This document shows, one piece after another, positions 6,596-24,610 of a DNA stretch of 25,830 nt. Every line of letters begins with the position of its first letter. Position 1 is the stretch's first letter. The position numbers and the translations under genes are program-made. Origin of the DNA: a virus; the IMG/VR virus record IMGVR_UViG_3300032284_000558, positions 1 to 25,830 of that record. One strand, given 5' to 3'. The notes below the pieces were generated by a model. The model made no database searches. It saw nothing but the letters and a program-made list of their open reading frames with translations, and had not been told where the DNA came from.

Positions 6596-7492
6596 TTATT
6601 TTTTAGATTTTGGGTCGTATTGGTCAAAATCGTTGCTTACGATGATACTTTTTAACTTCTTTGGGTATTCACCACCAGTATCAGTATAGTTTATTAGATT
6701 TGGAACTAGTGCTAACCCCTCTACTGGCTTATTGTGTTTACGTAACTCGGCACGGTGTTTACGGAATGCTGCATAAGCACGGTGAGTATTAAGGTTTAAC
6801 ATATATGAATTAACGGAACCTTGTGGAGTTTGAAACGCATGATATTTCTCACCATATGGACCCTCAACACTATCAGCCTTGCCAAATGATTTTTGACCAT
6901 AGAATACGTTTGCTGCTTTAGATTTTTCATCTTGACCCCAACTGCTTTCAATAGCAGCCTGTGCCAGCGCAATACTTGGTGGAATAATATCAACCTTGTC
7001 AAGTAGTTCCATAACATTGCTTGCACCATATTGGTCAAACATAGCATTCAAGAAGTCATTTTCATCTACTGGTAATTTGACACCACGTTTTAATGCAATT
7101 GCATCACGCATAATACGAGCACGGTCATGCATGATGCGTTGATTTTCTGCATTAATAAATGGAAGAACTGCTTTAGTAAAGTTTTCAACACGTGTATCAC
7201 GGTCAACTTTATCTTGGTTCTGTAATTCTTTTGGGAAGTTTGGATTAGTAACTGCTGCTTTTTCTTGTTTTTTAGGCTCTGCTTGCTTTTGTGGTTGTGT
7301 ATCTGCAGCACGTTGAACCGCACTAACTGATTGTTGAGGCTGAGCTATAGGTGCCTGTGGTGCCTTGCTAAGCATACCTATCCCACCAGCACCTATACCT
7401 GCGGCAACTGCACCAGCAGCAGCGGTATTCTTAATACGGTTCCATACTGGACCTTCAATTAATTCTTCGTCATAGAGTTCTGATAAAAGCAT
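6596..7492 (-). CDS. Bax-like glucosaminidase (peptidoglycan hydrolase) with membrane-like N-terminus
   Basis: A 298-aa protein. Residues 22-42 form a small-residue hydrophobic segment (AAAGAVAAGIGAGGIG). Residues 45-105 are a Pro/Gln/Lys-rich linker, and the C-terminal half (about 110-290) is a Bax/glucosaminidase (GH73-like) domain. Its signature is I-I-P-P-S-I-A-L-A-Q-A-A-I-E-S-S-W-G, with the glutamate as predicted catalytic acid, then N-V-F-Y-G-Q, Y-H-A-F-Q-T and S-V-N-S-Y-M-L-N-L-N-T-H-R-A-Y. It probably cleaves glycan strands, at lysis or as a virion-borne wall hydrolase. The late-type promoter favours a late role. There is no Shine-Dalgarno: AATAAATA ends 4 nt before the ATG, and an 8-bp inverted repeat covers the start. 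It lies just after the radical SAM 2 gene. Confidence 0.85.
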   Translation of the reverse strand: MLLSELYDEELIEGPVWNRIKNTAAAGAVAAGIGAGGIGMLSKAPQAPIAQPQQSVSAVQRAADTQPQKQAEPKKQEKAAVTNPNFPKELQNQDKVDRDTRVENFTKAVLPFINAENQRIMHDRARIMRDAIALKRGVKLPVDENDFLNAMFDQYGASNVMELLDKVDIIPPSIALAQAAIESSWGQDEKSKAANVFYGQKSFGKADSVEGPYGEKYHAFQTPQGSVNSYMLNLNTHRAYAAFRKHRAELRKHNKPVEGLALVPNLINYTDTGGEYPKKLKSIIVSNDFDQYDPKSKK

Positions 7493-7519
7493 AAGATATT
7501 TATTGGGCGACTATCTTAT
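7491..7519 (-). promoter_or_regulatory. Late promoter inside an inverted repeat covering the lysin start
   Basis: On the minus strand, AATAAATA (7504-7497) lies between the perfect 8-bp arms ATAAGATA (7519-7512) and TATCTTAT (7498-7491). The right arm includes the first two bases of the ATG at 7492. The loop holds the stop codon of radical SAM 2. A late transcript starting about 6 nt after the box would lack the left arm and be essentially leaderless. Confidence 0.7.
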
Positions 7520-9296
7520 TTTTTAGCGCACCAGTTCGGCGAACACTATAAAAATCAAAAGGTTTTAATGGATCAATTTTATTGAAAATTTTATAATTTG
7601 TTTTTTCTAGTGTCCAATCGTTGACATTAATCCAATAATCACGTATGACTTCGGGATATACAACTTTTTGGTCATAGATGAAATGTCTTTGGATATTGTA
7701 TATTTCACTGGCATCCCACGTATATTCTTCTACAAGTTTCTTACCAAGGTCATATATGATATCTTTATGGTCATACATAAACTTCCAACTCATCGTGTGG
7801 ATAGCATGACCTTTAATCTTCTCTGGATTGGTCATATGTCCAGTGGTCAGATACGTGCGAACAATTTGTTTAAGTTCACGATAGTGTTCACCAAGTATTG
7901 GGTCAGCTTGAATCATTTCATACAACATATCATAGAACTCAAGATACGGCATATCTTCAACTTTACGCATATATTTTGCATACAACTGTGTATAACCACT
8001 GATATGAAAATGAATAATCATCCAACCATACATATACGCTTCGATCATTTCGTCTGTGGTCATTGTGCTTGTTTCGTTTATAAGTTCAACGATTTCTGGA
8101 TATATGTCACTGTCGCTTGAATTATAAAGTGACACATAATCAAGTGCACGAACTGTTTTAATGCCGTATTTCTTTATAGATTCTGGCTGTGCTAACTCAC
8201 TGTTTGCCAACAATTGTGCAAACCAAATGTCTATGCTATTGTGTTGTCCTAGTTCGAGAACCTTACACATGCCAGATTTGAATGTCTGTAGTGTTTCGTT
8301 TGGCAGACCAATAATAACTTCTGTATATGTTGGAATATCACGCTGCTCACCAGTTAATAACACGTGTTCGGTGCGGTTCTTATCCATGTTGTCACGTTTA
8401 ATTTCAACCAGTGTGCTCTCATTCATGCTTTGAACGCTAACAGTAATGCCACGTCCATATTTTCCAATAGTTTGTGCGATATCAAATACAACATCGCTGC
8501 TGTTTTTTACATAATCAATGCTTATACCTTGGATACGACTGCTGTCTAATACTTTAGATAATTCAACTGCAAGCTCAAGGTCACGTTCTTTGAAGATACC
8601 AAAGTTTGCATCAGCAAAATACAGATATGTTATGTTATGGTTAGCTGCCCAATTAAACTCCGCAATAACACGGTCTTCACGAAACTTGTATATTTTACTG
8701 TATGTAGTTCCACCCCAATCACAGAACGTGCAAGCATATGGACACCCACGTGTGGTCTCAACAGTCATCTGCCACGCAGCATCTGGATATTCTGACATAA
8801 TATCATCAAACACACCAGTCAAATATGGACTTGGAATATCAAGATTTTTAATTCGTGGACTATTGTATACACGGGTTAGCGGTTCACCGTTCATATATTG
8901 ACGTAGTATTTTAAGAAACGATTCTTCGCCCTCAGTTAAGACAACGCTATCAATCCAACTATATTTTTCTAGTAGTTCTGCATTTGTATTTGGTCCACCA
9001 AACACAATTTTACATTCTGGAAACGTTTCTTTAATACGCTTTGCCATCTGTAGATTATATTGTTCATTCCAAATATACGAACTGAATCCGCATATAGATG
9101 GATTATCTAATCTAGATAACATAACTTCAGGTGCTTCTCGTTTGAAAAAAAGTTTATCTAGTTTGAAGTTTTCTGTTATATCACTAAACTGTGCAGCATA
9201 ACTCCACAAGCAGCCAACACTGTATGGCAACCAATAATTGATATTCTCAGCAAACTTTACCGTGTATTGGGGTTGAAATAAATATATGCGGTGCAT
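7500..9296 (-). CDS. Radical SAM enzyme with B12-binding-like N-terminal domain (copy 2)
   Basis: A 598-aa paralogue of the gene at 2368-4281. Shared landmarks (numbering from the 9296 start): W-L-P-Y-S-V-G-C-L-W-S-Y (22-33), G-F-S-S-Y-I-W-N (70-77), I-V-F-G-G-P (97-102), T-E-G-E (121-124), cluster motif G-C-P-Y-A-C-T-F-C-D-W-G-G (C185, C189, C192), D-A-N-F-G-I-F, and E-V-I-I-G-L-P-N-E. The D-x-H-x-x-G cobalamin motif is absent here too. The ATG at 9296 is preferred over 9323 because M-H-R-I-Y-L-F aligns with M-K-K-I-V-S-F of copy 1 and because a late-type box sits immediately before it. Substrate is unknown. It is followed directly by the glucosaminidase gene. Confidence 0.85.
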   Translation of the reverse strand: MHRIYLFQPQYTVKFAENINYWLPYSVGCLWSYAAQFSDITENFKLDKLFFKREAPEVMLSRLDNPSICGFSSYIWNEQYNLQMAKRIKETFPECKIVFGGPNTNAELLEKYSWIDSVVLTEGEESFLKILRQYMNGEPLTRVYNSPRIKNLDIPSPYLTGVFDDIMSEYPDAAWQMTVETTRGCPYACTFCDWGGTTYSKIYKFREDRVIAEFNWAANHNITYLYFADANFGIFKERDLELAVELSKVLDSSRIQGISIDYVKNSSDVVFDIAQTIGKYGRGITVSVQSMNESTLVEIKRDNMDKNRTEHVLLTGEQRDIPTYTEVIIGLPNETLQTFKSGMCKVLELGQHNSIDIWFAQLLANSELAQPESIKKYGIKTVRALDYVSLYNSSDSDIYPEIVELINETSTMTTDEMIEAYMYGWMIIHFHISGYTQLYAKYMRKVEDMPYLEFYDMLYEMIQADPILGEHYRELKQIVRTYLTTGHMTNPEKIKGHAIHTMSWKFMYDHKDIIYDLGKKLVEEYTWDASEIYNIQRHFIYDQKVVYPEVIRDYWINVNDWTLEKTNYKIFNKIDPLKPFDFYSVRRTGALKNKIVAQ

Positions 9297-9301
9297 AAAA
9301 A

Positions 9302-9309
9302 TACTTATT
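9302..9309 (-). promoter_or_regulatory. Late-type promoter abutting radical SAM 2
   Basis: The minus strand reads AATAAGTA (9309-9302), five T residues, then ATG (9296). There is no Shine-Dalgarno. The spacing matches the other three abutting boxes, which is the main reason to accept this one-base variant. Confidence 0.45.
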
Positions 9310-9345
9310 GACACAGACCCCACACATAATATAAATTAGGAAAGT

Positions 9346-9364
9346 GGCGGTTATAAATATCGCC
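9346..9364 (+). promoter_or_regulatory. Late promoter in a short hairpin, upstream of the outer-membrane protein
   Basis: TATAAATA (9352-9359) lies between GGCGGT (9346-9351) and ATCGCC (9359-9364), a 6-bp stem with one G-T pair. A near match TATAAATT lies upstream at 9331-9338. Transcription would start near 9365, leaving about 33 nt of leader with an AAAAGGA ribosome site inside the palindrome CTTTTATAAAAG. Confidence 0.7.
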
Positions 9365-9397
9365 GTGGGTTAAAACTTTTATAAAAGGAAAAATCAA

Positions 9398-10033
9398 ATG
9401 AAGAATATTCTACTCGCTACTGTTGCTACTATCGCCATGCTTGGCGTTGCACACGCAACTGATCTCCCGAACAAGAAGGCTCCACCTGTTGTTCCTACTC
9501 CTGCTCCTGTTGTATCTACTGCAGACAGTGTTTCTTTCAGCGTCTCTGGCGATTATCAGCCAAACTTCGGTGACAACAAGGACTATGCTTATGGTCTTAC
9601 CTATACACATACATTCGATGGTGGCTTCACTGGTGGTGTAAGTGGTTCTTGGACTGATACAGCTTCTGGCGACAACAAGTATAACCTTGAAGCACAGGCT
9701 GGTTACAAGTTCCCACTAACAAGTGCTATCACTGTTGGCGGTAAGGTCGGCGTTGGTGAACGTTGGCAGCCAGGTGCAGAGTTCCCTTACTACGCACTCT
9801 ATGGCACTGCCGACTATAAGTTGAACGATACTATTACTATCAATGCGCTTCAGTATCGTTATCGTAATGCCTTTGAACAGGCTAACAACTACGAGTCACA
9901 CCGTCTTGGCACTGGTGCAACTTACAACGTAAGCAAGACTGTTGCACTCAACGCAACTGTATACCGTGACTTTGACAAGGACTTCAACGCAACTGGCGAT
10001 GGTGTTCTAGTCGGTGCTACTGTTAAGTTCTAA
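9398..10033 (+). CDS. Alphaproteobacterial-type outer-membrane beta-barrel protein carried by the phage
   Basis: A 211-aa protein with a Sec signal peptide (M-K-N-I-L-L-A-T-V-A, cleavage likely after A-H-A at 20). The mature N-terminus T-D-L-P-N-K-K-A-P-P-V-V-P matches the A-D-L-P-x-[RK]-K-A-P opening of Omp25/Omp31-type proteins of rhizobial and related Alphaproteobacteria. The remainder alternates polar and aromatic residues in strands (Y-A-Y-G-L-T-Y-T-H-T-F, T-I-N-A-L-Q-Y-R-Y-R) and ends G-A-T-V-K-F, with the terminal Phe used for outer-membrane assembly. Its size fits an 8-stranded barrel. It has an AAAAGGA ribosome site, its own late promoter and a strong terminator. The phage probably took it from a host to alter the infected cell surface or mask a receptor (inference). 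Confidence 0.88.
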   Translation: MKNILLATVATIAMLGVAHATDLPNKKAPPVVPTPAPVVSTADSVSFSVSGDYQPNFGDNKDYAYGLTYTHTFDGGFTGGVSGSWTDTASGDNKYNLEAQAGYKFPLTSAITVGGKVGVGERWQPGAEFPYYALYGTADYKLNDTITINALQYRYRNAFEQANNYESHRLGTGATYNVSKTVALNATVYRDFDKDFNATGDGVLVGATVKF

Positions 10034-10056
10034 TATAATAGAAAATATTATATAAT

Positions 10057-10086
10057 AAAAATGGCGGGGAAACCCGCCATTTTTTT
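10057..10086. terminator. Bidirectional rho-independent terminator
   Basis: ATGGCGGG (10061-10068), GAAA loop, CCCGCCAT (10073-10080), flanked by A5 and T7 runs. It serves the outer-membrane protein on plus and the kinase operon on minus. Confidence 0.93.
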
Positions 10087-10558
10087 ATGCTTGAATGATG
10101 CTATCAAAACCTTCGTCTGGATCAGGTGGTTCAAGACTACCTATCATCTGATTCATAACATGATGTGGAATGTTCTTACCGCTACGTGAAGCAAGACGAC
10201 GATTTAATTCCAACATATCAGGTGTTGGAAAGAAGACAGCAATCTTTTCATAGTTCTCTGGAACCTGTGCCAGCTTGCCACGACGTGACTTCTTGCTGGT
10301 ATTGGTTTGGTCCCATACCAAATCCTTGTCATTATGAATGGCAGTACGAACCTGTGCCTGAACAAATTGATTAGCCTTATCAATATTATCCTTAAAGACA
10401 TCGTTATATGTCTTACCACTTTTAGCGGCAACTTGGTCGATGTAGGCATCGCTTGACGCAATGATAGCATCACCAAAGTTCTGGTTCTTAATCCAAGTGC
10501 TCTTACCGCTTGCAGGAACACCAATCAACATGTATAAACGAGGCAATGTAATCTCCAT
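10085..10558 (-). CDS. Polynucleotide kinase, 5'-kinase domain only
   Basis: A 157-aa P-loop kinase resembling the N-terminal half of T4 PseT/Pnkp. Walker A is G-V-P-A-S-G-K-S-T (13-21); S-S-D-A-Y-I-D follows as the substrate-binding strand, then D-Q-T-N-T-S-K-K-S-R-R and an arginine-bearing lid L-N-R-R-L-A-S-R-S-G-K. It would phosphorylate 5'-OH RNA or DNA ends with ATP, preparing them for the Rnl1 ligase. The HAD 3'-phosphatase domain fused in T4 is absent; a phosphatase-like fragment lies at 11258-11434. An in-frame TTG four codons in, with GGAG upstream, is an alternative start. It is last in its operon, before the bidirectional terminator. Confidence 0.85.
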   Translation of the reverse strand: MEITLPRLYMLIGVPASGKSTWIKNQNFGDAIIASSDAYIDQVAAKSGKTYNDVFKDNIDKANQFVQAQVRTAIHNDKDLVWDQTNTSKKSRRGKLAQVPENYEKIAVFFPTPDMLELNRRLASRSGKNIPHHVMNQMIGSLEPPDPDEGFDSIIQA

Positions 10559-10562
10559 TTCT

Positions 10563-10700
10563 TTATATTAAGATAACACATAGTAAGTTTTGTAGTCCAT
10601 ATAAATTAAAAAACCGAGAATATACAATGTAAATAATGTATATCCGTTCCTGATTAAAAAAATCTAATGTTTTCAAAAACATCTTTAAGATTTTTTTCAT
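10563..10700 (-). CDS. Possible 45-aa hydrophobic, lysine-rich peptide
   Basis: The ATG at 10700 follows the stop of the receiver-like gene by one base. The frame runs M-K-K-I-L-K-M-F-L-K and ends with L-L-C-V-I-L-I before TAA. It fills the gap exactly, but no ribosome site is visible. The composition is that of AT-rich DNA, and a 7-bp ATATACA/TGTATAT inverted repeat lies within (about 10621-10643). It may equally be an untranslated spacer. Confidence 0.3.
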   Translation of the reverse strand: MKKILKMFLKTLDFFNQERIYIIYIVYSRFFNLYGLQNLLCVILI

Positions 10701-10701
10701 G

Positions 10702-11037
10702 TTACGAAACTTTCATCACCATAAAGTTATGCATATAATGTTCAATATTTGCCTTGCCAACAGGGTTCATACTGTGAACAGTATACCCAAATCCATCTGG
10801 TAATTCAAGATTATTGTCCATGATATAATTGCATAACCACTTGGCAAAGTCGTATCCAGTTTTCTCATGCTTCTGGCCAATAATGTAGTGGTCATCAGCA
10901 AGGTCGTGGTCAAAGCTGATATAGTGCGGTAAGCCATAGTTAGTGACATACCACACTGCATCATCCATATTACGAGCAATTACCCAACTGTTGTCAGTAG
11001 GGTATCGCATATCATCAAGAAAGAGTTTGTATTTCAC
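10702..11037 (-). CDS. Cyclic-phosphate-processing receiver-like (cREC-type) protein
   Basis: A 111-aa single-domain protein: L-F-L-D-D-M-R-Y-P at the N-terminus, then W-V-I-A-R-N, F-D-H-D-L-A-D-D in the centre, T-G-Y-D-F-A-K-W-L, and Y-T-V-H-S-M-N-P-V-G at the end. This order (L-D-D-x-R-x-P, S-F-D-H-D-L, H-S-x-N-P) is that of the receiver-like family Burroughs and Aravind described in RNA-repair gene clusters and proposed to process cyclic phosphates at RNA 3' ends. The catalytic residues would be the acidic pairs and the histidines. It overlaps the preceding gene by 23 bp and lies two genes from the polynucleotide kinase. That context fits a 3'-end-healing role, as an alternative to the missing HAD phosphatase. 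Confidence 0.75.
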   Translation of the reverse strand: MKYKLFLDDMRYPTDNSWVIARNMDDAVWYVTNYGLPHYISFDHDLADDHYIIGQKHEKTGYDFAKWLCNYIMDNNLELPDGFGYTVHSMNPVGKANIEHYMHNFMVMKVS

Positions 11038-11257
11038 CTATAAACTCCACTTCACTTGTGGTTTCAATCCATACCTTCGCACCACAGCTTAGTGGTTTAT
11101 CTGGACTGTATACTACCTTACTTGGTCCATTGATAACGACTTCGTGTGCATATGTATTTTTTTTACCTTGTTTAACTGTGAGTGTAGGTTCACGCTCACC
11201 AGTTTTGGCGTTACGTTTAACTACGTGTTGATTGACGTGTATAATTGTTTTACCCAT
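11015..11257 (-). CDS. Conserved small phage protein (KTIIHVNQH family)
   Basis: An 80-aa protein starting M-G-K-T-I-I-H-V-N-Q-H, with R-N-A-K-T-G-E-R-E-P-T-L-T-V-K, T-Y-A-H-E-V, and V-V-Y-S-P-D-K-P-L-S-C-G-A-K-V-W-I-E-T. I recall this as a widespread short protein of T4-like and plasmid-like elements, function unknown. The same frame is open upstream to 11434, but that part reads as a different protein (see 11258-11434). The ATG at 11257 is chosen because it matches the usual family start. Only a weak ribosome site (GGATAG) precedes it. Confidence 0.75.
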   Translation of the reverse strand: MGKTIIHVNQHVVKRNAKTGEREPTLTVKQGKKNTYAHEVVINGPSKVVYSPDKPLSCGAKVWIETTSEVEFIGEIQTLS

Positions 11258-11434
11258 TTTTACTATCCATAATATTATTGTATCCACGACGGACTTTGCC
11301 AATCGTTTCACCAATTTCTTCTGGCCACCAAACAACAATGCAGCCCAGTTCTTGGGCTTGCTTGCGACGTACTGACGACGGCGTTCAATATTGGCGAGTG
11401 TTTTATCAATGTCAAATACAATAACTTTATTCAT
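11258..11434 (-). pseudogene. HAD phosphatase N-terminal remnant, joined to foreign reading frames
   Basis: From the ATG at 11434 (GGAG about 10 nt upstream) the frame reads V-I-V-F-D-I-D-K-T-L-A-N-I-E, then Y-V-A-S-K-P-K-N-W-A-A. This is the beginning of a Pnkp/PseT-type HAD 3'-phosphatase (F-D-x-D-x-T-L-A motif, with Lys where Gly is usual). After about 33 codons the resemblance ends and the rest of the domain is absent. Beyond that point another frame carries a protein-like stretch (L-G-C-I-V-V-W-W-P-E-E-I-G-E-T, ending at TAA 11252-11250), also without its own start. The remnant continues in frame into the 11015-11257 gene, so a 139-residue fusion could be made. I read it as deletion debris. 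Confidence 0.6.
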
Positions 11435-11700
11435 TACAACAATGCTCCACTGTGCATCAAATCAGCATAGGCATAGATAGCCCAGTTGCTAACTTTCTTG
11501 CCGACCTTTGGCGGGACTTCACCCTTGGTCAAAATGGCAAACTGGCGACCACGCTCATATTGCCACTGTTCATTGGTAGCCCACTTATCATATTCAGGAC
11601 TAAATGGCTTACCTTGCAAAACTTCTGTAAAGCCAAGAGTAAAATACCGATTATGGATGATACTTTTAAGTGTAACCACACGAGTCTTAATCTGTGTCAT
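11434..11700 (-). CDS. Conserved small phage protein, unknown
   Basis: An 88-aa protein starting M-T-Q-I-K-T-R-V-V-T-L. The ATG at 11700 has GGAG 6 nt upstream and is preferred over 11712 and 11727. It contains Y-F-T-L-G-F-T-E-V-L-Q-G-K-P-F, Y-E-R-G-R-Q-F-A and a helical C-terminus. The pattern F-x-x-G-F-x-E, then W-x-Y-E-R-G-R-x-F, is familiar from small phage proteins of unknown role. It is first in the operon behind the promoter at 11726-11753, followed by the HAD remnant with a TAATG overlap. Confidence 0.8.
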   Translation of the reverse strand: MTQIKTRVVTLKSIIHNRYFTLGFTEVLQGKPFSPEYDKWATNEQWQYERGRQFAILTKGEVPPKVGKKVSNWAIYAYADLMHSGALL

Positions 11701-11725
11701 GTGTTTCTCCATCAGTTGATAATTC

Positions 11726-11753
11726 AAATTACCATACTATTGTGACTTGTCAA
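11726..11753 (-). promoter_or_regulatory. Early-type sigma70 promoter (P5)
   Basis: On the minus strand: TTGACA (11753-11748), 16-bp spacer, TAATTT (11731-11726) with TGG before the -10. The segment AATAGTATGGTAAT is shared with the promoter at 551-578. The -35 overlaps the stop codon of the upstream gene. It drives the operon ending with the kinase. Confidence 0.75.
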
Positions 11754-12157
11754 TCGATAATTTGGTATGGTTTGTTCCAGTTACCGATATTCACGTCAAC
11801 ATACCATCCAATATCATAGTAATCCGATTGGACATCGCTACGGTCGTGATTACCATCGTTCATAGCAGTCAAAATTTCTTTCAAGAAGTTCTTTGCCTTG
11901 CCAGTAAAATTGTCCCGATAGTGATAAGTGTTTACGTCGATATGGTCTACAGCAGGGCTACCCAAACGGAAACCACCTGCACGTGCACCAACCGTATCGT
12001 TGTAGTTGGTGATGAAGTCAATAGAACCGCTCTTGATATTGAGCACAAGGGTCATGTGGTTACTAACTGCAAGCGAACCCTTAACGCCGTATTTGGCAAG
12101 GATTTTCTTAACGACTGGGGCAATCTGAGCCTTACGTTCCTGGGACATATAAGCCAT
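11750..12157 (-). CDS. Conserved phage protein (MAYMSQERKA family)
   Basis: A 135-aa protein starting M-A-Y-M-S-Q-E-R-K-A. The ATG at 12157 has GGAG 9 nt upstream; the upstream in-frame extension lies over the promoter and is not coding. Conserved stretches are K-Y-G-V-K-G-S-L-A-V, N-H-M-T-L-V-L-N-I-K-S-G, D-H-I-D-V-N-T-Y-H-Y and the C-terminal D-I-G-W-Y-V-D-V-N-I-G. I recall this family as very common in T4-like phages and some plasmids; its function is unknown. It is a single-gene unit with its own promoter at 12190-12217, suggesting it is wanted early. Confidence 0.88.
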   Translation of the reverse strand: MAYMSQERKAQIAPVVKKILAKYGVKGSLAVSNHMTLVLNIKSGSIDFITNYNDTVGARAGGFRLGSPAVDHIDVNTYHYRDNFTGKAKNFLKEILTAMNDGNHDRSDVQSDYYDIGWYVDVNIGNWNKPYQIID

Positions 12158-12189
12158 TGGTGTATCTCCTCGTTGCTGTCTATATTCTG

Positions 12190-15678: not shown

Positions 15679-15695
15679 TATTTATACTATAAATA
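15679..15695. promoter_or_regulatory. Palindromic late promoter, TATAAATA on both strands
   Basis: TATTTATA-C-TATAAATA: the plus-strand box (15688-15695) serves the neck gene, which has GGAG 6 nt before its ATG. The mirror box (15686-15679) would fire leftward, antisense to 15293-15622. The palindrome may instead be a structural feature of the promoter. Confidence 0.7.
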
Positions 15696-16478: not shown

Positions 16479-17102
16479 ATGAAAATTAATTATTCTAAGG
16501 GAATGATTATTGGTGTATGTGGATTGATTGGTGGCGGTAAGGGAACAGTCGCTGACATATTAGTAGGTTCCCATAACTTTCATAAGATTAGTTTTGCCGA
16601 TGCATTAAAAGATGCAGTATCACGTGTATTCTCATGGGATAGAAAACTCCTTGAGGGTGATACAAAGCAATCTCGTGAATGGCGTGAAGAAGTTGACCAA
16701 TGGTGGGCTGTTCGTCTTGATATACCTAACTTAACTCCACGTTGGGTTCTACAGTATTGGGGAACAGAAGTTTGCCGTGTAGGATTTCACGAAGATATTT
16801 GGGTTGCAAGTATGGAACGTCGTGTTATGAACCTACAAGCAAGTCATCCTACAACTAATTATGTTATTCCAGATACACGTTTTCCAAATGAAGTTGACAT
16901 GATTCGTCGTCAGGGTGGTAAAGTATGGGGGGTTCGCCGTGGTGAAGACCCTGGTTGGATGGTCAATTTACTGTTACATGGCACGGAACCTAATGATGTT
17001 CATCCGAGCGAATGGAGTTGGGTGCGTTCAAATCTTGACCAATTGATTGATAACAACGGCACTCTTCATGATTTGGAAGAAAAAGTTAAAACTTTGCTAT
17101 AA
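16479..17102 (+). CDS. Deoxynucleoside monophosphate kinase, T4 gp1 type
   Basis: A 207-aa P-loop kinase: G-V-C-G-L-I-G-G-G-K-G-T (12-23) as Walker A, S-F-A-D-A-L-K-D-A-V as the substrate helix, then W-D-R-K-L-L-E-G-D-T, W-V-L-Q-Y-W-G-T-E-V-C-R, and D-T-R-F-P-N-E. All are typical of phage dNMP kinases, which make dNDPs for phage DNA synthesis. It sits within the late block, 12 bp after the neck gene. The first ATG has no good ribosome site; ATG 16503 (M-I-I-G-V) has AAGGGA close to it, so the start is unsure. Confidence 0.88.
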   Translation: MKINYSKGMIIGVCGLIGGGKGTVADILVGSHNFHKISFADALKDAVSRVFSWDRKLLEGDTKQSREWREEVDQWWAVRLDIPNLTPRWVLQYWGTEVCRVGFHEDIWVASMERRVMNLQASHPTTNYVIPDTRFPNEVDMIRRQGGKVWGVRRGEDPGWMVNLLLHGTEPNDVHPSEWSWVRSNLDQLIDNNGTLHDLEEKVKTLL

Positions 17103-17119: not shown

Positions 17120-17187
17120 CCTTAAAGGGTCTATTTCTGGGTGTTCCGATAAATATTATCAACACCTTAAAGGAAACAGACCCTATG
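17120..17187 (+). promoter_or_regulatory. Late promoter inside a long inverted repeat before the sheath gene
   Basis: GATAAATA (17148-17155) lies in the loop of nested stems. AGGGTCT (17126-17132) pairs with AGACCCT (17178-17184, touching the ATG), TTTC (17134-17137) with GAAA (17173-17176), and GGTGTT (17140-17145) with AACACC (17161-17166). CCTTAAAGG occurs twice (17120-17128, 17165-17173), the second copy holding the ribosome site. A late transcript would start near 17161 and keep only the right arm. Confidence 0.78.
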
Positions 17188-20100
17188 GCAACATTAGTAT
17201 CTCCAGGCGTATCGGTATCAGTTATTGACGAGAGCAATTATGCTCCAACTGGTCCAGGTACAGTACCATTCATTCTACTTGCGACTGCACAGGATAAAAG
17301 CAGCACTGCTGGCGGTATTGCTAGCTTTACAACTGCAGCAAATGCAAATGCACTTAAATTGATCACAAGTCAGAAAGAGCTTCTAAACAATTACGGTTTG
17401 CCTATTTTCCCAACAGATGCAAGTGGAAACCGTTTATTTGGTAGTGAACTTGCTGAATATGGTCTGATGGCTGCACACAGCACCCTTGGTATTACCAATC
17501 AGGCTTATGTGCTACGTGCTGATATTGATTTAAATCAATTAATTGGCAGCAGCAGCCGTCCATACAGCAATCCAACTGGCGGAACTCAGTGGTTAAGCAC
17601 TACATCTAGTAAGTGGGGTATTTTCCAGTGGACACAAAGTACAACAAATCCAGTGTTTACAAACGTAACCCCTATTATTATTACTGACCCATCACAGCAT
17701 ACTAGTGGTGTTCCACTTTCAACTGTTGGCAAAGTAGGAAGTTATGCAATAGTTTCTGATATTTCATACACTTCTGCAAACCCAATTTATCAAAAAGCAT
17801 ATGATAATACTTGGAATCAAGTAGGAAGTACTGCTTGGCAGCAAAAGACTCCAACAATTATTGGAACTACTCAACCTACTAATGATCTCACATTTAGTGG
17901 AACACAAGATGTTCTAACTATTAATACTGTTCCTATTGCAGCCATCACTAATGGCACTGCTGCTACATTTGCAAATACTGTTAATACTGCTGCTATTCCA
18001 GGTGTTACTGCAGCAGTACTACCAAACGGATATTTTGCTCTATTTGTTACAAGTGCAGCAAAGAGTGGTGGTTCAGTAGTAGATGGTAAGGTTACCATTT
18101 CTAACGGAACTGGTACACCACTAGCAAAGCTAGGATTGACTGCAGTTAGCCAGATGGGTGGTGTAACATTTACATATGCTCCTCACTATCAAGTACCTGC
18201 TTGGAAAACAACAGATTCTTCCACTAAACGTGCAAGCGGTAGTGTATGGATTAAGACAACTGCTGTTAACAATGGTATGAATATTAGTGTATATCGTTGG
18301 AATAGTGCTACAACAAATTGGGATTTGATTCCAGCACCAGCGTTCCATAATAATTCAAATGCAATTTACAACTATGACCCAACATTGGGTGGATTGGGAA
18401 TTGTAACAGATACACTATTCATGCAATATGACACGCTTTCCAACGGTACTGCATCTTCACGTTTGATGCAATGGCAGGGTTATGGAAGTGCATTAACTGT
18501 TACTGGAACTGTATCAAATCCAACTTTTGCACAAAATGATTCATTTACTATTCAGACAACTGTTCTTGGAAGTAGTTCACTAAGTGCAACATATACTGTT
18601 ACATTAACACAAGCTACTCCTACTGCTAGTAATTTTGTAAACGCATTTAACTCAGTAATGGCTGGAACTCCTGTCAGTGCTTCACTTTCATCAAGTGGAA
18701 ACATTGTACTAACTCAGTCAAATGGCGGGGATATTATTCTTACAAATACAAGTGGAACCCCTCTAACAAGTGCTGGTATAACTACATCAACACCAAATGT
18801 TTATGACGGAAATAACAGCTATCTTGTTGCCACTTACTGGCAACCTGCAGAATACCTATATCAACAGGCAGTTGCTCCAATTAATGCACCTGCAACTGGT
18901 GCATTATGGTATTATGAAACACCTCTTGAAGTTGATATTATGATTAATAATGGAACGGTTTGGAAAGGTTATCACGGACTAGCAAGTGATGCACGTGGTT
19001 ATAACCTACAAAATACTGACCCACTAGGACCAATCATCAGTAGTTCAGCGCCTACACTACAGACAGATGGTACTTCACTAGTATTTGGTGACATTTGGGT
19101 AAGCACTGCAGACCTTGAAAATTATCCACAGATTTATCGTTGGCAGCGTCTAAATGGCGTAAATCAGTGGGTGCTCATTGATAATACTGATAACACAACT
19201 GAAAATGGTATTCTATTTGCTGATGCACGTTGGGCTGGCAGTGACGGAGTTGATCCTGCACTTGATGCTAAGCCAACTATCGTAAGTCTATTGACTAGTG
19301 ACTATGTAGATTATGATGCTCCAAATCCGCAGCTATACCCACGTGGAACACTGTTGTTCAATACACGTCGCAGCAGCTACAACGTTAAGAAGTATGTAAG
19401 TGATCACTTTAGCACTGCAAATTATCCTCTAAACAGTGCGTTGACTACTACTGCTTCATGGATAAGCGTTAGTGGTAAGAATATTAATAACGTTCCTTAC
19501 ATGGGCCGTAAGGCACAGCGTAATGTCGTTGTTAGTGCTCTTAAAGAAGCAGTAGATATGAACGTAGTTGTTCGTGAAGACCAAATTAACTTTAATCTCT
19601 TGGTATGCCCAGGCTACCCAGAATTAACTCAGAATCTTGTTATGTTGAACGATGATCGCCGTAATACTGGTTTCATTCTTGCTGATACTCCAATGGGATT
19701 ATCAAGTGACGCAACTGAAATCACAAATTATGTAACAAACGTTGCTGGTGTTTCAAATACTGGTGAAGACGGTCTTGTTACGGCTGATAGTTATACTGCG
19801 GTATTCTATCCAGGCGCTGCATACACCAATTCTCTTGATGGCGTTGGACAGGTTGTTGTTCCAATTACTCATGCAATCCTACGTATGATTGTTAAGAGTG
19901 ACCAAAACAGTCATCCATGGTTTGCACCAGCAGGAACACTACGTGGTCAGATTGATAACGTAACTAAGATTGGTTATGTTGATCGTGTAACTGGTAAGTT
20001 TATAAGCATTGGAACAAATCAGGGTCTACGTGACCTACTGTATCAAAACAATGTTAACCCAGTTGCGGTATTCCCTAACGAAGGCATCCTTAACTACGGT

Positions 20101-20502
20101 AACCACACTCGTCAGGCAACTGCTACAGCACTTGACCGTATCAACGTTGCTCGTTTGATTAACTATCTACGTTACAACCTTGAACGTCTTGCAAAGCCAC
20201 TTGTGTTTGAACCAAATGATACAATCACACGCAATGAAGCTAAACAAGCAATTGAAGGTCTGCTAAATGATATTGTTGCACAACGTGGTATCTACGACTA
20301 TCTCGTAGTTTGCGATACTACAAACAATACTCCAAGCACCATTGACCGCAATGAATTGCACATTGATATCGCAATTGAACCAACAAAGGCTGTAGAGTTT
20401 ATCTATATCCCTGTTCGTATCTTGAATACTGGCGCAATTGCTGGTTCTGGTGCAAATAATGGCGGAATTAGCAACACTACACCTAGTGTAAGATTAACGT
20501 AA
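17185..20502 (+). CDS. 18: Contractile tail sheath protein, T4 gp18 family, with large insertions
   Basis: The 1105-aa sheath subunit, much longer than T4 gp18 (659 aa). The N-terminus A-T-L-V-S-P-G-V-S-V-S-V-I-D-E-S and the C-terminal part (N-V-V-V-S-A-L-K-E-A-V-D, I-N-Y-L-R-Y-N-L-E-R-L-A-K-P-L-V-F-E-P-N-D, H-I-D-I-A-I-E-P-T-K-A-V-E-F-I) are standard sheath. Residues about 130-680 are inserted, surface-exposed material. They include two domains resembling the flagellin-hook IN fold (about 235-320 and 436-535, each with T-I-N/T-V start, N-T-V-N or F-V-N-A-F-N helix, and L-A-K-L-G-L or L-T-S-A-G-I end), plus several short modules with a G-x-[IVLQ]-W-x-x-T core. AAAGGAAA lies about 8-9 nt before the ATG. 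It is followed by a terminator. Confidence 0.95.
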   Translation: MATLVSPGVSVSVIDESNYAPTGPGTVPFILLATAQDKSSTAGGIASFTTAANANALKLITSQKELLNNYGLPIFPTDASGNRLFGSELAEYGLMAAHSTLGITNQAYVLRADIDLNQLIGSSSRPYSNPTGGTQWLSTTSSKWGIFQWTQSTTNPVFTNVTPIIITDPSQHTSGVPLSTVGKVGSYAIVSDISYTSANPIYQKAYDNTWNQVGSTAWQQKTPTIIGTTQPTNDLTFSGTQDVLTINTVPIAAITNGTAATFANTVNTAAIPGVTAAVLPNGYFALFVTSAAKSGGSVVDGKVTISNGTGTPLAKLGLTAVSQMGGVTFTYAPHYQVPAWKTTDSSTKRASGSVWIKTTAVNNGMNISVYRWNSATTNWDLIPAPAFHNNSNAIYNYDPTLGGLGIVTDTLFMQYDTLSNGTASSRLMQWQGYGSALTVTGTVSNPTFAQNDSFTIQTTVLGSSSLSATYTVTLTQATPTASNFVNAFNSVMAGTPVSASLSSSGNIVLTQSNGGDIILTNTSGTPLTSAGITTSTPNVYDGNNSYLVATYWQPAEYLYQQAVAPINAPATGALWYYETPLEVDIMINNGTVWKGYHGLASDARGYNLQNTDPLGPIISSSAPTLQTDGTSLVFGDIWVSTADLENYPQIYRWQRLNGVNQWVLIDNTDNTTENGILFADARWAGSDGVDPALDAKPTIVSLLTSDYVDYDAPNPQLYPRGTLLFNTRRSSYNVKKYVSDHFSTANYPLNSALTTTASWISVSGKNINNVPYMGRKAQRNVVVSALKEAVDMNVVVREDQINFNLLVCPGYPELTQNLVMLNDDRRNTGFILADTPMGLSSDATEITNYVTNVAGVSNTGEDGLVTADSYTAVFYPGAAYTNSLDGVGQVVVPITHAILRMIVKSDQNSHPWFAPAGTLRGQIDNVTKIGYVDRVTGKFISIGTNQGLRDLLYQNNVNPVAVFPNEGILNYGNHTRQATATALDRINVARLINYLRYNLERLAKPLVFEPNDTITRNEAKQAIEGLLNDIVAQRGIYDYLVVCDTTNNTPSTIDRNELHIDIAIEPTKAVEFIYIPVRILNTGAIAGSGANNGGISNTTPSVRLT

Positions 20503-20524
20503 CATAAAAATATAATAGAAATAT

Positions 20525-20553
20525 AAAAAGCCGCTAGCAATAGCGGCTTTTTT
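20525..20553. terminator. Rho-independent terminator after the sheath gene
   Basis: AAAAAGCCGCTA, GCAA loop, TAGCGGCTTTTTT (stem GCCGCTA 20530-20536 / TAGCGGC 20541-20547). It can act both ways and isolates the abundant sheath message from the tube message. Confidence 0.93.
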
Positions 20554-20573
20554 AATATACGCACTAATTAAAT

Positions 20574-20603
20574 CTATGCAAAGTGGTATAAATACTTTCA
20601 TAG
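20574..20603 (+). promoter_or_regulatory. Late promoter in the loop of a hairpin before the tube gene
   Basis: CTATG-c-AAAGT (20574-20584) pairs with ACTTTCATAG (20594-20603), 10 bp with one bulge. The loop holds TATAAATA (20587-20594). The right arm runs into the ribosome site AGGAG (20602-20606). A late transcript would start near 20600 and lose the left arm. Confidence 0.75.
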
Positions 20604-20614
20604 GAGAATATAAG

Positions 20615-21238
20615 ATGGCAGTTGCATCACTACTTAACATGACAGTGCCAGTGGCATCAGCGAGCGACCAGAGCGCAAATAGCCAAGGTCTGTTGATGCC
20701 CCTGTTGAAGTATCGTTTCAGAGTTAGCTTCGAGAACTTCGGGGTTACAAGTCCACGCACGGAACTTACGAAACAGGTCATGAATTTTACACGACCTAAC
20801 TTAAACTTTAACCCAATCACGATTGACTTGTATAACAGTAAAATGTATCTACAGGGTAAACCAGAATGGCAGACTGTTACGGTTGAATTCCGTGATGATG
20901 CCAATGGAACAGTTCGTCTTCTCGTTGGTGAACAGATTCAGAAGCAATTTGACTTTGCTGAACAGGCAAGCGCAGTTAGCGGTATTGATTATAAGTTTAT
21001 CACTCGCTTTGAAGCACTTGATGGTGGTAATGGCGCAAATGGTCCTACTACACTAGAAGAATGGGAACTTTATGGTTGCTTCATTAGTGAAGTAAACTAC
21101 AATCAGTTTGATTATACCAGCAACGATCCAGCAACTATTGGCGTAACACTTCGTTATGATAATGCTCTACAGGTTCCTGGAAAAACTGGTGTTGGTACTC
21201 CAGTAACAAGAACAAATGGAGCCAGTATTACTGGTTAA
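20615..21238 (+). CDS. 19: Tail tube protein, T4 gp19 family
   Basis: A 207-aa tube subunit that stacks in rings inside the sheath to form the DNA channel. The start M-A-V-A-S-L-L-N at 20615 has AGGAG 8 nt upstream; the frame is open from 20576 but that stretch is the promoter hairpin. Family features are L-K-Y-R-F-R-V-S-F-E-N-F-G, T-K-Q-V-M-N-F-T-R-P-N-L, G-K-P-E-W-Q-T-V-T-V-E-F-R-D-D and L-E-E-W-E-L-Y-G-C-F-I, followed by V-T-L-R-Y-D-N-A. It is longer than T4 gp19 (163 aa), mostly through loops. The gene directly follows sheath, the usual order. Confidence 0.92.
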   Translation: MAVASLLNMTVPVASASDQSANSQGLLMPLLKYRFRVSFENFGVTSPRTELTKQVMNFTRPNLNFNPITIDLYNSKMYLQGKPEWQTVTVEFRDDANGTVRLLVGEQIQKQFDFAEQASAVSGIDYKFITRFEALDGGNGANGPTTLEEWELYGCFISEVNYNQFDYTSNDPATIGVTLRYDNALQVPGKTGVGTPVTRTNGASITG

Positions 21239-21251
21239 GGGTTAATATAAT

Positions 21252-22766
21252 ATGAGTTCCATACTCAACTCGGTATTACAAAGCCTACTATACGGCGGCG
21301 AGGTGCATGATTATGCACACGCCGCCAAAGTCTTTCGTTCAAATGATTTTGCTCGTGCGCCACGATACAAATGGCTGTTTCAGGTAAACTTTATATTAAG
21401 TTCAAATGCACCATCCTATGTTAGCACAAGAGAATTAAGTTATCTTGTAAAATCAGTTGATTTGCCACGATTCACTGTTGATGTTAAAGATATGAATCAA
21501 TATAATCGTAAAACATTTGTTCAGAGTCGTATTCGATATGAGCCAGTTACTATTAAGTTTCATGATGATAATAGCAACGGCCTACGTGAATTATGGCAAG
21601 ATTACTATACATATTATTATGCAGATGGTAATTATTCCAACAATGATTATAATTTTGATGATCGATATCGTCCTCGTTCTTCCCGTTCAAGTTCTGCTTG
21701 GGGTTTAGATTACGGTGCAACTGTGCCGTTTTTTAGTGCAATAGAGATTTACAGCTTGGCTGGTGGGGAAAGTAATAAAATTACGCTAATGAATCCAATC
21801 ATCAGTAGTTTTAGTCATGATAGTCACGATTACAGTGACGGTCAGGGATTGATGGAAGCTACTATGCAAGTTCACTATATGGGTGTTACATACGAGAATG
21901 GATATGCGGCTGGTGTTCCAGGGTTTGCAGTTCCAGAAGCATATGATCCAAGTGTAAGCGGAATTAGTGCAAAGTTTGCTGGATTTTTTCTTGATAAAAA
22001 TAGTAACACACTAGTAAGACAGCCTACTAATTTTACAAATAGAGCAATTGAAAGACAAAATCAGGCATCCTACCGTAGTCCAATTGAGCAAACTGCAATA
22101 TATAATCCAACTTCAACTAATAGTTTAAGTCCAACTGAAATACAATCTATTGTCAATAACAATAATTCTGCAACCAATTTGCAAAATTATTCATTTCCAA
22201 TCGCTGATACTAACGCACAGATTCAAACACAAAATCCAAGTAATATAGTTCCGTATCAGCTTGCAACCAATGCTTCAAGCAATGGTGAAAATGTACCTAC
22301 ACCGCAGGGAAATGCAACACTTTATCCGCCAGATAGTTATCAGCACATTTTATATAATCAGGGATACACCGTAAGTCAGATTACATCTGCTAGTAAGTTT
22401 GTTAGTTCAATCCCATCTGAAACTATTAATTCACATAAAATTAGTGATGGCGGTATTACATCAACACAAGCATGGTTAGCACAGCAATATATAGATAGTC
22501 CCCAATCTGTTGCAAGTTTTGGTTCAGTAAATTATGGACAGCCAGCATCTAACCCAAGTAACATAAACTTCTCAAATCCATCTAACCCAGTAAATCCAAC
22601 TTATAATAGCCAAACTTGGCAACAAACATTGCTATCTGAAGGATATACCAGTAGTCAAGTTAATATTGCTGCAAATCAGATTGCTCAACTTAATATTGCA
22701 CCAGGCACTAACTTAGTTCCTGTTGCAAAGTCATACATTGCTTTTAATGCCAATAATAAAAAATAA
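21252..22766 (+). CDS. Second tail-tube-like protein with long Asn/Ser/Gln-rich C-terminal extension
   Basis: A 504-aa protein. Residues about 30-235 follow the gp19 tube plan (Y-K-W-L-F-Q-V-N-F-I, L-V-K-S-V-D-L-P-R-F, Y-E-P-V-T-I-K-F-H-D-D, M-E-A-T-M-Q-V-H-Y-M-G-V-T-Y). Residues about 240-504 are low-complexity and rich in Asn, Ser, Gln and Pro. They carry a twice-repeated helical unit (Y-Q-H-I-L-Y-N-Q-G-Y-T-V-S-Q-I and W-Q-Q-T-L-L-S-E-G-Y-T-S-S-Q-V). By analogy with T4 gp48 and gp54 (tube-like baseplate proteins), it may begin or end the tube, with the extension reaching another virion part. AAGGG precedes the ATG by about 10 nt. Confidence 0.82.
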   Translation: MSSILNSVLQSLLYGGEVHDYAHAAKVFRSNDFARAPRYKWLFQVNFILSSNAPSYVSTRELSYLVKSVDLPRFTVDVKDMNQYNRKTFVQSRIRYEPVTIKFHDDNSNGLRELWQDYYTYYYADGNYSNNDYNFDDRYRPRSSRSSSAWGLDYGATVPFFSAIEIYSLAGGESNKITLMNPIISSFSHDSHDYSDGQGLMEATMQVHYMGVTYENGYAAGVPGFAVPEAYDPSVSGISAKFAGFFLDKNSNTLVRQPTNFTNRAIERQNQASYRSPIEQTAIYNPTSTNSLSPTEIQSIVNNNNSATNLQNYSFPIADTNAQIQTQNPSNIVPYQLATNASSNGENVPTPQGNATLYPPDSYQHILYNQGYTVSQITSASKFVSSIPSETINSHKISDGGITSTQAWLAQQYIDSPQSVASFGSVNYGQPASNPSNINFSNPSNPVNPTYNSQTWQQTLLSEGYTSSQVNIAANQIAQLNIAPGTNLVPVAKSYIAFNANNKK

Positions 22767-22780
22767 ATATTATTATGGCA
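22748..22780 (+). promoter_or_regulatory. Late promoter inside an inverted repeat that covers an ATG
   Basis: TGCCAATAATA (22748-22758) pairs with TATTATT-at-GGCA (22768-22780), leaving AT of the start codon as a bulge. AATAAATA (22762-22769) lies between and overlaps the stop codon of the upstream gene (22764-22766). The box ends 5 nt before the ATG (22775) and no Shine-Dalgarno is present. Confidence 0.7.
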
Positions 22781-23140
22781 AACACACCAGATACTATCAC
22801 ATCCAATCCGTTATCAAGTCAAACATTTTTTAATGGATATTTTAGTCAACCTATCCAAGTAAGCGATGCTGTTTGGGGTCAGGTCTATGGGTATTTTTTA
22901 ACTCTTACTAAAGATGCAAGTGCAGCAAGTGCACTGGCACAAAGCGTTATTGCTCTAACTTATAATAATAATTTAGACCCACTTGCAGTAATAAATGAGT
23001 TTAGCAAGGCACCAAACTCTAGTAATGTAAAAACCCTATTAATAAGTTTTTTTAATAGTAGCAAAGGATCAACGAGTAAACTGGGATTTAAAAAGTTAAA
23101 TGAAACCCCTCCCAGTGTTTCTCGTAATATAATAGCATGA
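22775..23140 (+). CDS. Conserved tail-region protein, unknown
   Basis: A 121-aa protein starting M-A-N-T-P-D-T-I-T-S-N. It has helical parts (V-W-G-Q-V-Y-G-Y-F, A-A-S-A-L-A-Q-S-V-I-A-L) and the ending T-S-K-L-G-F-K-K-L, then V-S-R-N-I-I-A. Small proteins with a T-S-x-L-G turn and an R-x-[IV]-[IL]-A end commonly sit just after tube genes in T4-like phages; their function is not known to me, but position suggests tail assembly. Predicted to be made from a leaderless late mRNA. The stop overlaps the next ATG as ATGA. Confidence 0.78.
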   Translation: MANTPDTITSNPLSSQTFFNGYFSQPIQVSDAVWGQVYGYFLTLTKDASAASALAQSVIALTYNNNLDPLAVINEFSKAPNSSNVKTLLISFFNSSKGSTSKLGFKKLNETPPSVSRNIIA

Positions 23141-23583
23141 GTTTAAAATATAGCCAAGGAATATATGAACCAGTAAACGTCAGCAAATATGCTGGACGTG
23201 GTAGTATACGATATCGTAGTAGTTGGGAACTTGCTTTTATGACTTTTTGTGATAATCATCCAAGTGTATTGCATTGGGCTAGCGAAAGTATTAGTATCCC
23301 TTATCACAATCCAATTGAGAAGAAAACCAAAAGTTATATTCCAGATTTCTTTGTAGTCTATCAGGATGCACACGGTAAACGTCGTGCCGAATTGGTTGAA
23401 ATAAAACCACACAAAGAAACAACACTGGAAGCTGCTGGTCGTAGTGAAAGAAATCAAATTATGGCAGCAGTTAACATGGCTAAGTGGCAAGCAGCACAGG
23501 CTTGGTGTAAACAACAGGGAATATCCTTTCGTGTTATTACTGAACATGATATGTTTGCTGGAACAAAAAAGAAAAAACGATAA
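23137..23583 (+). CDS. 4: Head-completion nuclease-like protein, T4 gp4 family
   Basis: A 148-aa protein (T4 gp4 is about 150). It starts M-S-L-K-Y-S-Q-G-I-Y and carries Y-R-S-S-W-E-L-A-F-M (27-35), V-L-H-W-A-S-E-S-I-S-I-P-Y (44-56), Y-I-P-D-F-F-V-V (67-74), and E-L-V-E-I-K-P-H-K (85-93). E50, D70 and E88-x-K90 form a PD-(D/E)xK (TnsA-like) nuclease centre. In T4 the protein is needed to complete DNA-filled heads, perhaps trimming DNA ends. It is coupled to the preceding gene by ATGA. Confidence 0.9.
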   Translation: MSLKYSQGIYEPVNVSKYAGRGSIRYRSSWELAFMTFCDNHPSVLHWASESISIPYHNPIEKKTKSYIPDFFVVYQDAHGKRRAELVEIKPHKETTLEAAGRSERNQIMAAVNMAKWQAAQAWCKQQGISFRVITEHDMFAGTKKKKR

Positions 23584-23591
23584 ATTAATAT

Positions 23592-24020
23592 ATGACCAAG
23601 AAACTTGAAGAATTATTTGATTTGCCACCAGCCCCAAGTAGAGAGGTTGCAGAGGCATTAGAAAACGCCCACAGTCTTGAAAGTTCAATGCCAAGTCAAC
23701 CAGATGATGCACTAGATAAAGAACTTGACCAATTAGCTGACCAAGCAGTAGAAAGTTTTGAAAACTTACAAAGTCTTGGTATGAACGTAGAAGCACGGTT
23801 CAGTGCACCTATATTTGAAGCAAGTGCTAAAATGCTTGCCACTGCAGTTACTGCAAAACTTGGTAAAGTTCAAAAGAAACTTAAACAAGCTGAATTAGCT
23901 ATCAGAATTGAAAAAATGAAACAGGACCAACAAAAAAATAGTGGTGATGACAATACAGTAAATGTTGAAGCGGCAGTATTTGACAGAAATGAATTGCTAA
24001 AAACCTTTCGTAAACAATAA
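23592..24020 (+). CDS. Probable small terminase subunit (gp16-like)
   Basis: A 142-aa acidic, helical protein: M-T-K-K-L-E-E-L-F-D-L-P, a long acidic linker, D-K-E-L-D-Q-L-A-D-Q-A-V-E-S-F, then A-P-I-F-E-A-S-A-K-M-L-A-T-A-V-T-A-K-L-G-K-V-Q-K-K-L-K-Q-A. The last part is a long coiled-coil-like helix ending in a polar tail. This matches the plan of small terminase subunits of T4-like phages (N-terminal L-F-D-[IL]-P peptide, oligomerising helix pair), which recognise DNA and regulate the large terminase. The assignment rests on layout and context rather than a defining motif. No strong ribosome site is visible. Confidence 0.55.
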   Translation: MTKKLEELFDLPPAPSREVAEALENAHSLESSMPSQPDDALDKELDQLADQAVESFENLQSLGMNVEARFSAPIFEASAKMLATAVTAKLGKVQKKLKQAELAIRIEKMKQDQQKNSGDDNTVNVEAAVFDRNELLKTFRKQ

Positions 24021-24038
24021 ATACATGATAAAAGGTTT
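24001..24038 (+). promoter_or_regulatory. Late promoter inside a perfect inverted repeat containing the ribosome site
   Basis: AAACCTTT (24001-24008) and AAAGGTTT (24031-24038) are perfect 8-bp arms. AATAAATA (24016-24023) lies between them. The right arm carries the ribosome site AAAGG of the gene at 24044. Transcription from the box would begin near 24029 and exclude the left arm, which lies in the last codons of the gene upstream. Confidence 0.78.
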
Positions 24039-24043
24039 GAAAT

Positions 24044-24610
24044 ATGAAGACCCTATTAGAATATATCATAGATAATGAAAAGAAATATGGCTTTCGTGTG
24101 AAGATTGCCACAGAACTTAGCGACGATGGCATGAAAAGCCTACAAAATTGCTTGAGTAAATGGAAATTGGAAGCAATCAGTGAACCAAAACGTTTACCTA
24201 TTGCCGAAGAGCACACTGGATTTGGTCATTTAAAAAATACAGAACTTTATATCATTGATCTAGTTGTAAATTATCCATGCACTCCAGCAGAAGTTCAAGC
24301 TGCAGTTCACGAGTCAACTAGTATCCCATTGAGTCACATTATGGTGGTGACTCCGACACAGGAAGTCCTTGCTGCGCCAATTGTTGCAGATAGTGATTCC
24401 CCTGTGTTGACTTCTGATTTCCCAGAGCAAAAAGAACCACAGCTACTAGCTGATCTTGCAAATGCTCTTAAAACAAAATCAATTGAACATCAATTTGCTG
24501 TTAAACCTACAAAAGGCAAGACGCTAAACGATATTCCACAATATAACACTAGCCCATTGGGCACAAAGAAAACAAAACTACCAGAACGTCCTAAGACGGG
24601 AGTAAAATAA
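24044..24610 (+). CDS. Head-region structural or core protein, unknown
   Basis: A 188-aa protein. Residues 1-110 look like a small alpha/beta domain: L-L-E-Y-I-I-D-N, Y-G-F-R-V-K-I-A-T-E-L, M-K-S-L-Q-N-C-L-S-K-W-K-L-E-A-I, E-L-Y-I-I-D-L-V-V-N-Y-P-C-T-P-A-E-V, then S-I-P-L-S-H-I-M-V-V. The C-terminal 75 residues are disordered and Lys/Pro-rich. Similar proteins (Y-x-[YF]-R-V-K-[IV]-A, N-Y-P-[CV]-T-P, I-P-x-S-H-I-x-V) lie near the scaffold and portal genes of T4-like cyanophages and rhizobial phages; a head-core role is likely but unproven. Expression is from its own late promoter hairpin. Confidence 0.7.
   Translation: MKTLLEYIIDNEKKYGFRVKIATELSDDGMKSLQNCLSKWKLEAISEPKRLPIAEEHTGFGHLKNTELYIIDLVVNYPCTPAEVQAAVHESTSIPLSHIMVVTPTQEVLAAPIVADSDSPVLTSDFPEQKEPQLLADLANALKTKSIEHQFAVKPTKGKTLNDIPQYNTSPLGTKKTKLPERPKTGVK

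Follow-up and report, generated by a model that had tools for sequence, protein, structure and literature searches.

Promoter-spanning hairpins and candidate leaderless starts at late genes of T4-like phages

What are inverted repeats doing around the late promoters of a phage? The question is raised by a virus fragment of 25,830 bases (IMG/VR record IMGVR_UViG_3300032284_000558, positions 1 to 25,830; the window, meaning this whole stretch). It carries a T4-like gene set: neck, deoxynucleoside monophosphate (dNMP) kinase, tail sheath, tail tube and head closure. A sequence-only reading of the window had noted six late promoter boxes, each between the arms of an inverted repeat, and had proposed that hairpins gate late genes in general. 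From sequence comparison, hairpin gating is well supported for the tail sheath gene, but it is not a common explanation of the six sites. Two of the other sites are better read as starts of leaderless messages, in which the late RNA would begin at the start codon.

All six boxes lie where they had been placed. Five match WATAAATA exactly; the exception is the box at 17148 (GATAAATA). WATAAATA occurs 8 times in the window where 5.2 are expected. In close relatives, ATAAATA lies 5' of 33 of 169 gene starts; the antisense strand of these regions has it only once. This count, together with the spacing histograms, shows that NTAAATA is enriched upstream of genes on the coding strand. The variants CTAAATA and GTAAATA are in use too and are common in the clade. 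A gp55-like late sigma factor is encoded by the larger uncultured relatives G002 and G004 and by the cultured phages HTVC008M, Mosig and Melnitz. None was found in G001 and G003, which are fragments, as is the window with only 25.8 kb. In T4, late boxes have their first base at -13 (PMC2988020); with 8 bases a box thus extends to -6, which puts the expected RNA start at the sixth base after it. The RNA starts predicted here for the window phage apply this T4 geometry.

Inverted repeats flank all six boxes, but such repeats are common. In shuffled sequence, perfect arms of at least 6 bp arise close to a box with a frequency of 0.15-0.40 per site, and at random window positions the frequency is 0.28, so that arms of this length are expected by chance at about 30% of positions. 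Two sites, 7497 (p 0.007) and 24016 (p 0.013), each with perfect arms of 8 bp, are the only ones whose arm length exceeds chance. Comparison of stem energies with those of shuffled upstream DNA gives a significant result for 17148 alone among the seven sites tested (-28.4 vs -15.7 kcal/mol, p 0.002); p lies between 0.08 and 0.65 at the remaining sites. The sites and limits had been picked in the first reading, and jointly the six are only mildly surprising.

The tail sheath hairpin

The site that exceeds its shuffled controls lies between the dNMP kinase gene (16479-17102, +; PHROG 139, E 2e-44) and the tail sheath gene directly downstream (17185-20502, +; PHROG 10581, E 6e-197). The box GATAAATA (17148-17155, +; GCTAAATA in most orthologs) predicts an RNA start at 17161. 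On its left are an outer arm AGGGTCTATTTCT (17126-17138, +) and an inner arm GGGTGTT (17139-17145, +). On its right are an inner arm AACACC (17161-17166, +) and an outer arm AGGAAACAGACCCT (17171-17184, +), which overlaps the Shine-Dalgarno (SD) sequence AAAGGA (17169-17174) and abuts the ATG at 17185. The box is thus flanked by GGGTCTATTTC..GGAAACAGACCC and by GGGTGTT..AACACC; it sits between arms spanning 17126-17145 and 17161-17184, with the SD sequestered on the right side of the hairpin and the left arm 5' of the predicted start. The stem formed by 17126-17138 with the outer right arm scores 24.5.

Orthologs keep this arrangement and build it from other sequences: GTGGTATATTTCT/AGGAATATACCAC (L014), TCTATTCC/GGAATAGA (L009), GTCTATCC/GGATAGAC (L023), CATATCC/GGATATG (L221) and, with one mismatch, TGGGGTTTTTCT/GGAAACACCCCA (L025). 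Across 50 orthologs, native sheath stems are stronger than stems assembled from the arms of different orthologs (z 7.3). Nine orthologs share one register, in which 92.6% of cells pair, a percentage inflated because the register subsets (these nine and that of phrog_11591 below) were picked by stem position. Both sides have changed at 6 of the 9 pairs (19 cells). Covariation in this register is 0.62, compared to at most 0.09 with the partner slid; a slide by one base destroys it. Picking of the register alone would not account for this.

Stem registers shift among the sheath orthologs. In more distant ones an arm can occupy the 5-nucleotide spacer that follows the box, without extending past the predicted start (CTGGTAA/TTACCAG in L017; TGAGTA/TACTCA in L224), and the spacer pairs better with its own right side than with swapped ones (p 0.003 and 0.006).

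Where would an RNA that needs silencing come from? Gene order is what fits here: the kinase gene is the likely source of RNA reading through into the sheath gene. Escherichia phage 121Q has its kinase and sheath genes in this order as well. Strong hairpins occur in 21 of 37 loci with a kinase gene detected directly upstream and in 6 of 43 without, a difference confounded by kinship. It agrees with a requirement that RNA reading through from the kinase gene be silenced. Translational coupling, which had been offered as an alternative use of the left arms, is unlikely between kinase and sheath because the left arm begins 24 nucleotides past the kinase stop codon.

The arrangement is not confined to the sheath gene. 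Genes of a second family, the virion protein phrog_11591, have a left arm that directly adjoins the box and a right arm that contains the SD and stops close to the ATG. Native arms again exceed swapped ones (z 7.1, 32 distinct leaders), covariation is 0.41 compared to 0.23 when shuffled, and G-U pairs are present. When leadered late starts are pooled and own arms are compared with swapped arms, z is -5.3 in Atu_ph07, -4.3 in G002, -4.1 in 121Q and -2.7 in G003. In T4, a blind scan brings up genes that match families of lysozyme, homing endonuclease and baseplate hub, in agreement with the published T4 cases. Gating of the T4 e/soc type thus appears to recur in the clade, but only in a minority of the leadered late starts, roughly 10-20%. 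The idea of a general device with unrelated arm sequences survives at the level of the clade, but not for all six sites of the window.

Late boxes next to start codons

At 7497 and 22762 there is no SD to hide. The box AATAAATA at 7497-7504 (-) ends 4 nucleotides before ATG 7492 of a glucosaminidase (lysin-like) gene (6596-7492, -; Pfam PF01832, E 3e-13). The same box at 22762-22769 (+) ends 5 nucleotides before ATG 22775 of a gene for 121 amino acids without assigned function (22775-23140, +). Under T4 geometry such spacing would start the RNA at the AUG. Both genes have an AUG start, neither has an SD or an SD-led alternative start, and in-frame stops lie 5-7 codons upstream. Because there is no SD to hide, both sites are better read as leaderless starts than as hairpin gates.

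Relatives keep the spacing and not the arms. At 22762, 26 of 48 distinct ortholog upstream regions have the spacing of 4-5 nucleotides, none with an SD, and the arms are not conserved. At 7497 the spacing is kept in 7 distinct relatives, and the inverted repeat is not conserved. The window holds two late boxes that had gone unlisted. One of them, TCTAAATA (4287-4294, -), ends 5 nucleotides before ATG 4281 of a B12-binding/radical SAM gene, another predicted leaderless start.

The other unlisted box, TATAAATA (15688-15695, +), is conserved and precedes the neck gene (ATG 15714, +). This gene is the clearest case: an identical start codon has a leader with an SD in the window and no leader in many relatives. 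Neck orthologs (window 15714; L200, L179, L196, L209) also show box-ATG spacings of 6-8 nucleotides, which would leave a leader of a few nucleotides; 6-12 nucleotides are found in 18 of 63 distinct upstream regions.

The spacing is far more frequent than expected. In the collected IMG/VR loci, 186 starts lie 4-5 nucleotides from a box when 17 are expected, and 9 of the 186 have an SD-like motif. The excess returns in G001 (10 vs 0.6 expected), G002 (25 vs 3.2) and G003 (16 vs 2.5), and among cultured phages in Pelagibacter phage HTVC008M (12 vs 0.6), Mosig (6 vs 1.5) and Melnitz (3 vs 0.4). There is none in T4, KVP40, 121Q and Atu_ph07; S-PM2 has 1 such start and P-SSM2 only 2. The spacing peaks sharply at 4-5 nucleotides, with permuted-hexamer controls near background, and no SD-led alternative start is present in 240 of 247 cases. 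A pyrimidine directly precedes the ATG in 150 of 165 starts with a 5-nucleotide spacing. A pyrimidine often precedes a transcription start site.

Most HTVC008M genes of this class encode virion proteins, and the class includes tape measure, baseplate, tail tube, DNA end protector and head closure. A family without assigned function, PHROG 35576, has members in the class from two phages, the uncultured G002 and HTVC008M (L272:4065-6110, -; L274:11972-13807, +). We infer that late mRNAs of the class are leaderless. We found no report of leaderless late genes in T4-like phages among the open-licence PubMed Central (PMC) papers searched.

Competing explanations

We propose that in a clade of T4-like phages the T4-type late promoters (NTAAATA box, gp55-like sigma factor) tie late translation to initiation at the promoter in two ways. 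One is an RNA hairpin that would span the promoter, at the tail sheath gene (17148) and, in relatives, at some further virion genes. RNA reading through from upstream would contain both arms, and the SD would be hidden; RNA begun at the late promoter would lack the left arm and leave the SD free. At other late genes, here 22762 and 7497, late RNA would begin at the AUG or within 1 nucleotide of it and would be leaderless, and in read-through RNA the AUG would be internal and without a ribosome site. Hairpins and leaderless starts would then serve one end, the translation only of RNA begun at a late promoter. The sequences show enriched boxes, their spacing, missing SDs, covarying stems and left arms ahead of the predicted starts; the explanation further supposes RNA starts at the predicted positions, the existence of read-through RNA and an effect on translation. 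As a whole we consider it probable.

Several observations weigh against this explanation, besides the inflated pairing percentage. A stem 5' of the box is weak or absent in many distant sheath orthologs. The accessibility of the SD, computed by partition function, does not separate native from swapped leaders; the case for the hairpin is hence carried by stem covariation. The pooled hairpin signal is weak in T4 (borderline), S-PM2 and HTVC008M, and starts with a stem over the SD and a box in the loop, summed over genomes, number only about 50 when about 28 are expected. The comparison set consists of IMG/VR loci (80 gathered by sheath protein, more by tube, neck and phrog_11591 proteins), the larger uncultured relatives G001-G004 and cultured phages. 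Counts across the loci and G001-G003 are not independent because the loci overlap and share ancestry, and some overlap G001-G003.

Gating by hairpins at all six late promoters of the window, as first proposed, has in its favour that every box lies near an inverted repeat and that the 8-bp perfect arms at 7497 and 24016 are rarer than chance. It is nevertheless largely refuted, and we regard it as highly improbable: the arms at 7497, 22762, 20587 and 24016 do not covary, 7497 and 22762 lack an SD, and the box at 9352 is missing in relatives. That box (TATAAATA, 9352-9359, +) lies in the loop between two short palindromic arms (9346-9351 and 9359-9364), 5' of an outer-membrane protein gene. The boxes at 20587 and 24016 are conserved in nearly all orthologs. 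The former (TATAAATA, 20587-20594, +) serves the tail tube gene (ATG 20615), with a stem that pairs 20572-20584 with 20594-20603; the latter (AATAAATA, 24016-24023, +) overlaps the stop codon of the upstream gene, between arms at 24001-24008 and 24031-24038. Covariation of the arms was looked for in the orthologs of both and was not found, except for a marginal signal at 24016 in close relatives (z -2.0, p 0.025). Stem sequestering as a shared explanation was therefore rejected: two sites have no SD, one is not conserved and two have no covarying stem. The expectation of stems beyond shuffled controls, like that of compensatory changes in relatives, is borne out at 17148; stem energy elsewhere stays within the shuffles, and compensatory changes do not extend to 7497, 9352, 20587, 22762 or, beyond its marginal signal, 24016.

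The palindromes could also act as DNA, as a repressor operator or a promoter cruciform, and in several orthologs the arms do abut or overlap the box. A protein operator would not be expected to have arm sequences that are unrelated among orthologs, or registers that shift; furthermore, the SD or AUG region always falls within the right arm, and G-U pairs are tolerated. We hold this quite improbable. Some hairpins may instead be intrinsic terminators of upstream transcription, which the late promoter in the loop escapes. A T run does follow the right arm in a few relatives, for example L273 -4676 (GGCTCCGTG..CACGGAGCCTTTTT) and L329 15077, but the sheath and phrog_11591 stems end at the ATG and have no T run, which makes termination distinctly unlikely. 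As for the spacing of 4-5 nucleotides, the promoters might start RNA further upstream or serve a downstream gene, and the messages would not be leaderless. The +1 position is, after all, borrowed from T4 geometry. The sharp peak over its controls and the general lack of an SD-led alternative speak against this, as does the alignment of the N-termini with those of leadered orthologs, and we judge it unlikely.

If the two-way explanation holds, a handful of textbook T4 cases extends, with covariation evidence, to virion genes over a large uncultured clade. A wider version is an even call: among T4-like phages of fresh and marine waters, those of SAR11 included, a large part of the late genes would be leaderless with the promoter locked 4-5 nucleotides from the AUG. 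Combined with promoter-spanning hairpins at further late genes, this would tie late translation to starts at the late promoter and leave read-through RNA silent genome-wide. The fusion of promoter and AUG may explain why the usual method failed to find late promoters in pelagimyophages (PMC7029224), and start codons and promoters could be re-annotated in many T4-like genomes. Some virion proteins of these phages are predicted to depend on leaderless initiation by the host ribosome.

Neighbouring genes and known systems

The window has no near match by megablast among 50,697 phage records. By sheath protein, its nearest cultured relatives are jumbo T4-like phages (Atu_ph07, Phosso, PA5oct; 38-43% identity). 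The head closure gene lies at 23137. Scans of viral contigs with the proteins starting at 7492 and 9398 returned zero relatives; relatives are nevertheless present in the loci gathered via other genes. The protein of 9398-10033 (+) has a signal-peptide-like start and a weak match to outer-membrane beta-barrels. Its relatives (45-48% identity; L170, L182, L193 and others) have in common another conserved element upstream, TCTATGATATAACC. A scan of genome contigs with this outer-membrane protein, aimed at the host lineage, gave no match.

Two B12-binding/radical SAM proteins (Pfam) of about 600 amino acids each are encoded in this one phage fragment (2368-4281, -; 7500-9323, -). The true start of the second is probably an ATG near 9296 and not the listed GTG, with a box-like AATAAGTA 5 nucleotides before it. 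A hairpin with a T run, AGCCGCTAGCAATAGCGGCTTTTTT (20529-20554, +), follows the sheath gene, and most orthologs have a terminator-like hairpin of altered sequence there. In relatives, promoter-spanning hairpins followed by a T run, which could be terminators, belong to L273:13400-13759 (-) and L329:15078-15620 (+).

The promoters belong to the box family of T4 and cyanophage late promoters, TATAAATA/NATAAATA (PMC2988020, PMC2984593), and relatives of the window encode a gp55-like sigma factor. Unlike those promoters, the clade of the window commonly uses CTAAATA or GTAAATA, and a large subset of its boxes lies 4-5 nucleotides from the ATG, a subset missing in T4, KVP40, 121Q and Atu_ph07.

Late promoters combined with hairpins that sequester the ribosome binding site are known from T4 genes e, soc, 49, I-TevI/II/III and segB and from mobE of phage Aeh1 (PMC3014915, PMC2988022). 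As in these systems, the late promoter lies in or beside the stem, late RNA would lose the left arm, the right arm contains the SD and/or the AUG, and the long upstream RNA is predicted to be silent. In contrast, the genes apparently gated here are the tail sheath and other virion proteins of a divergent jumbo-like clade. Their arms covary over dozens of orthologs, and the left arm changes register, sometimes into the 5-nucleotide promoter spacer.

Leaderless mRNAs are known from Alphaproteobacteria, for example 171 in Sinorhizobium meliloti (PMC3616915), and from cI of phage lambda (PMC9031893). The starts described here resemble them in their AUG, in the lack of an SD and in a predicted RNA start at the A of the AUG. 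They differ in that a whole class of genes, largely virion genes, appears to be leaderless and is tied to a T4-type late promoter.

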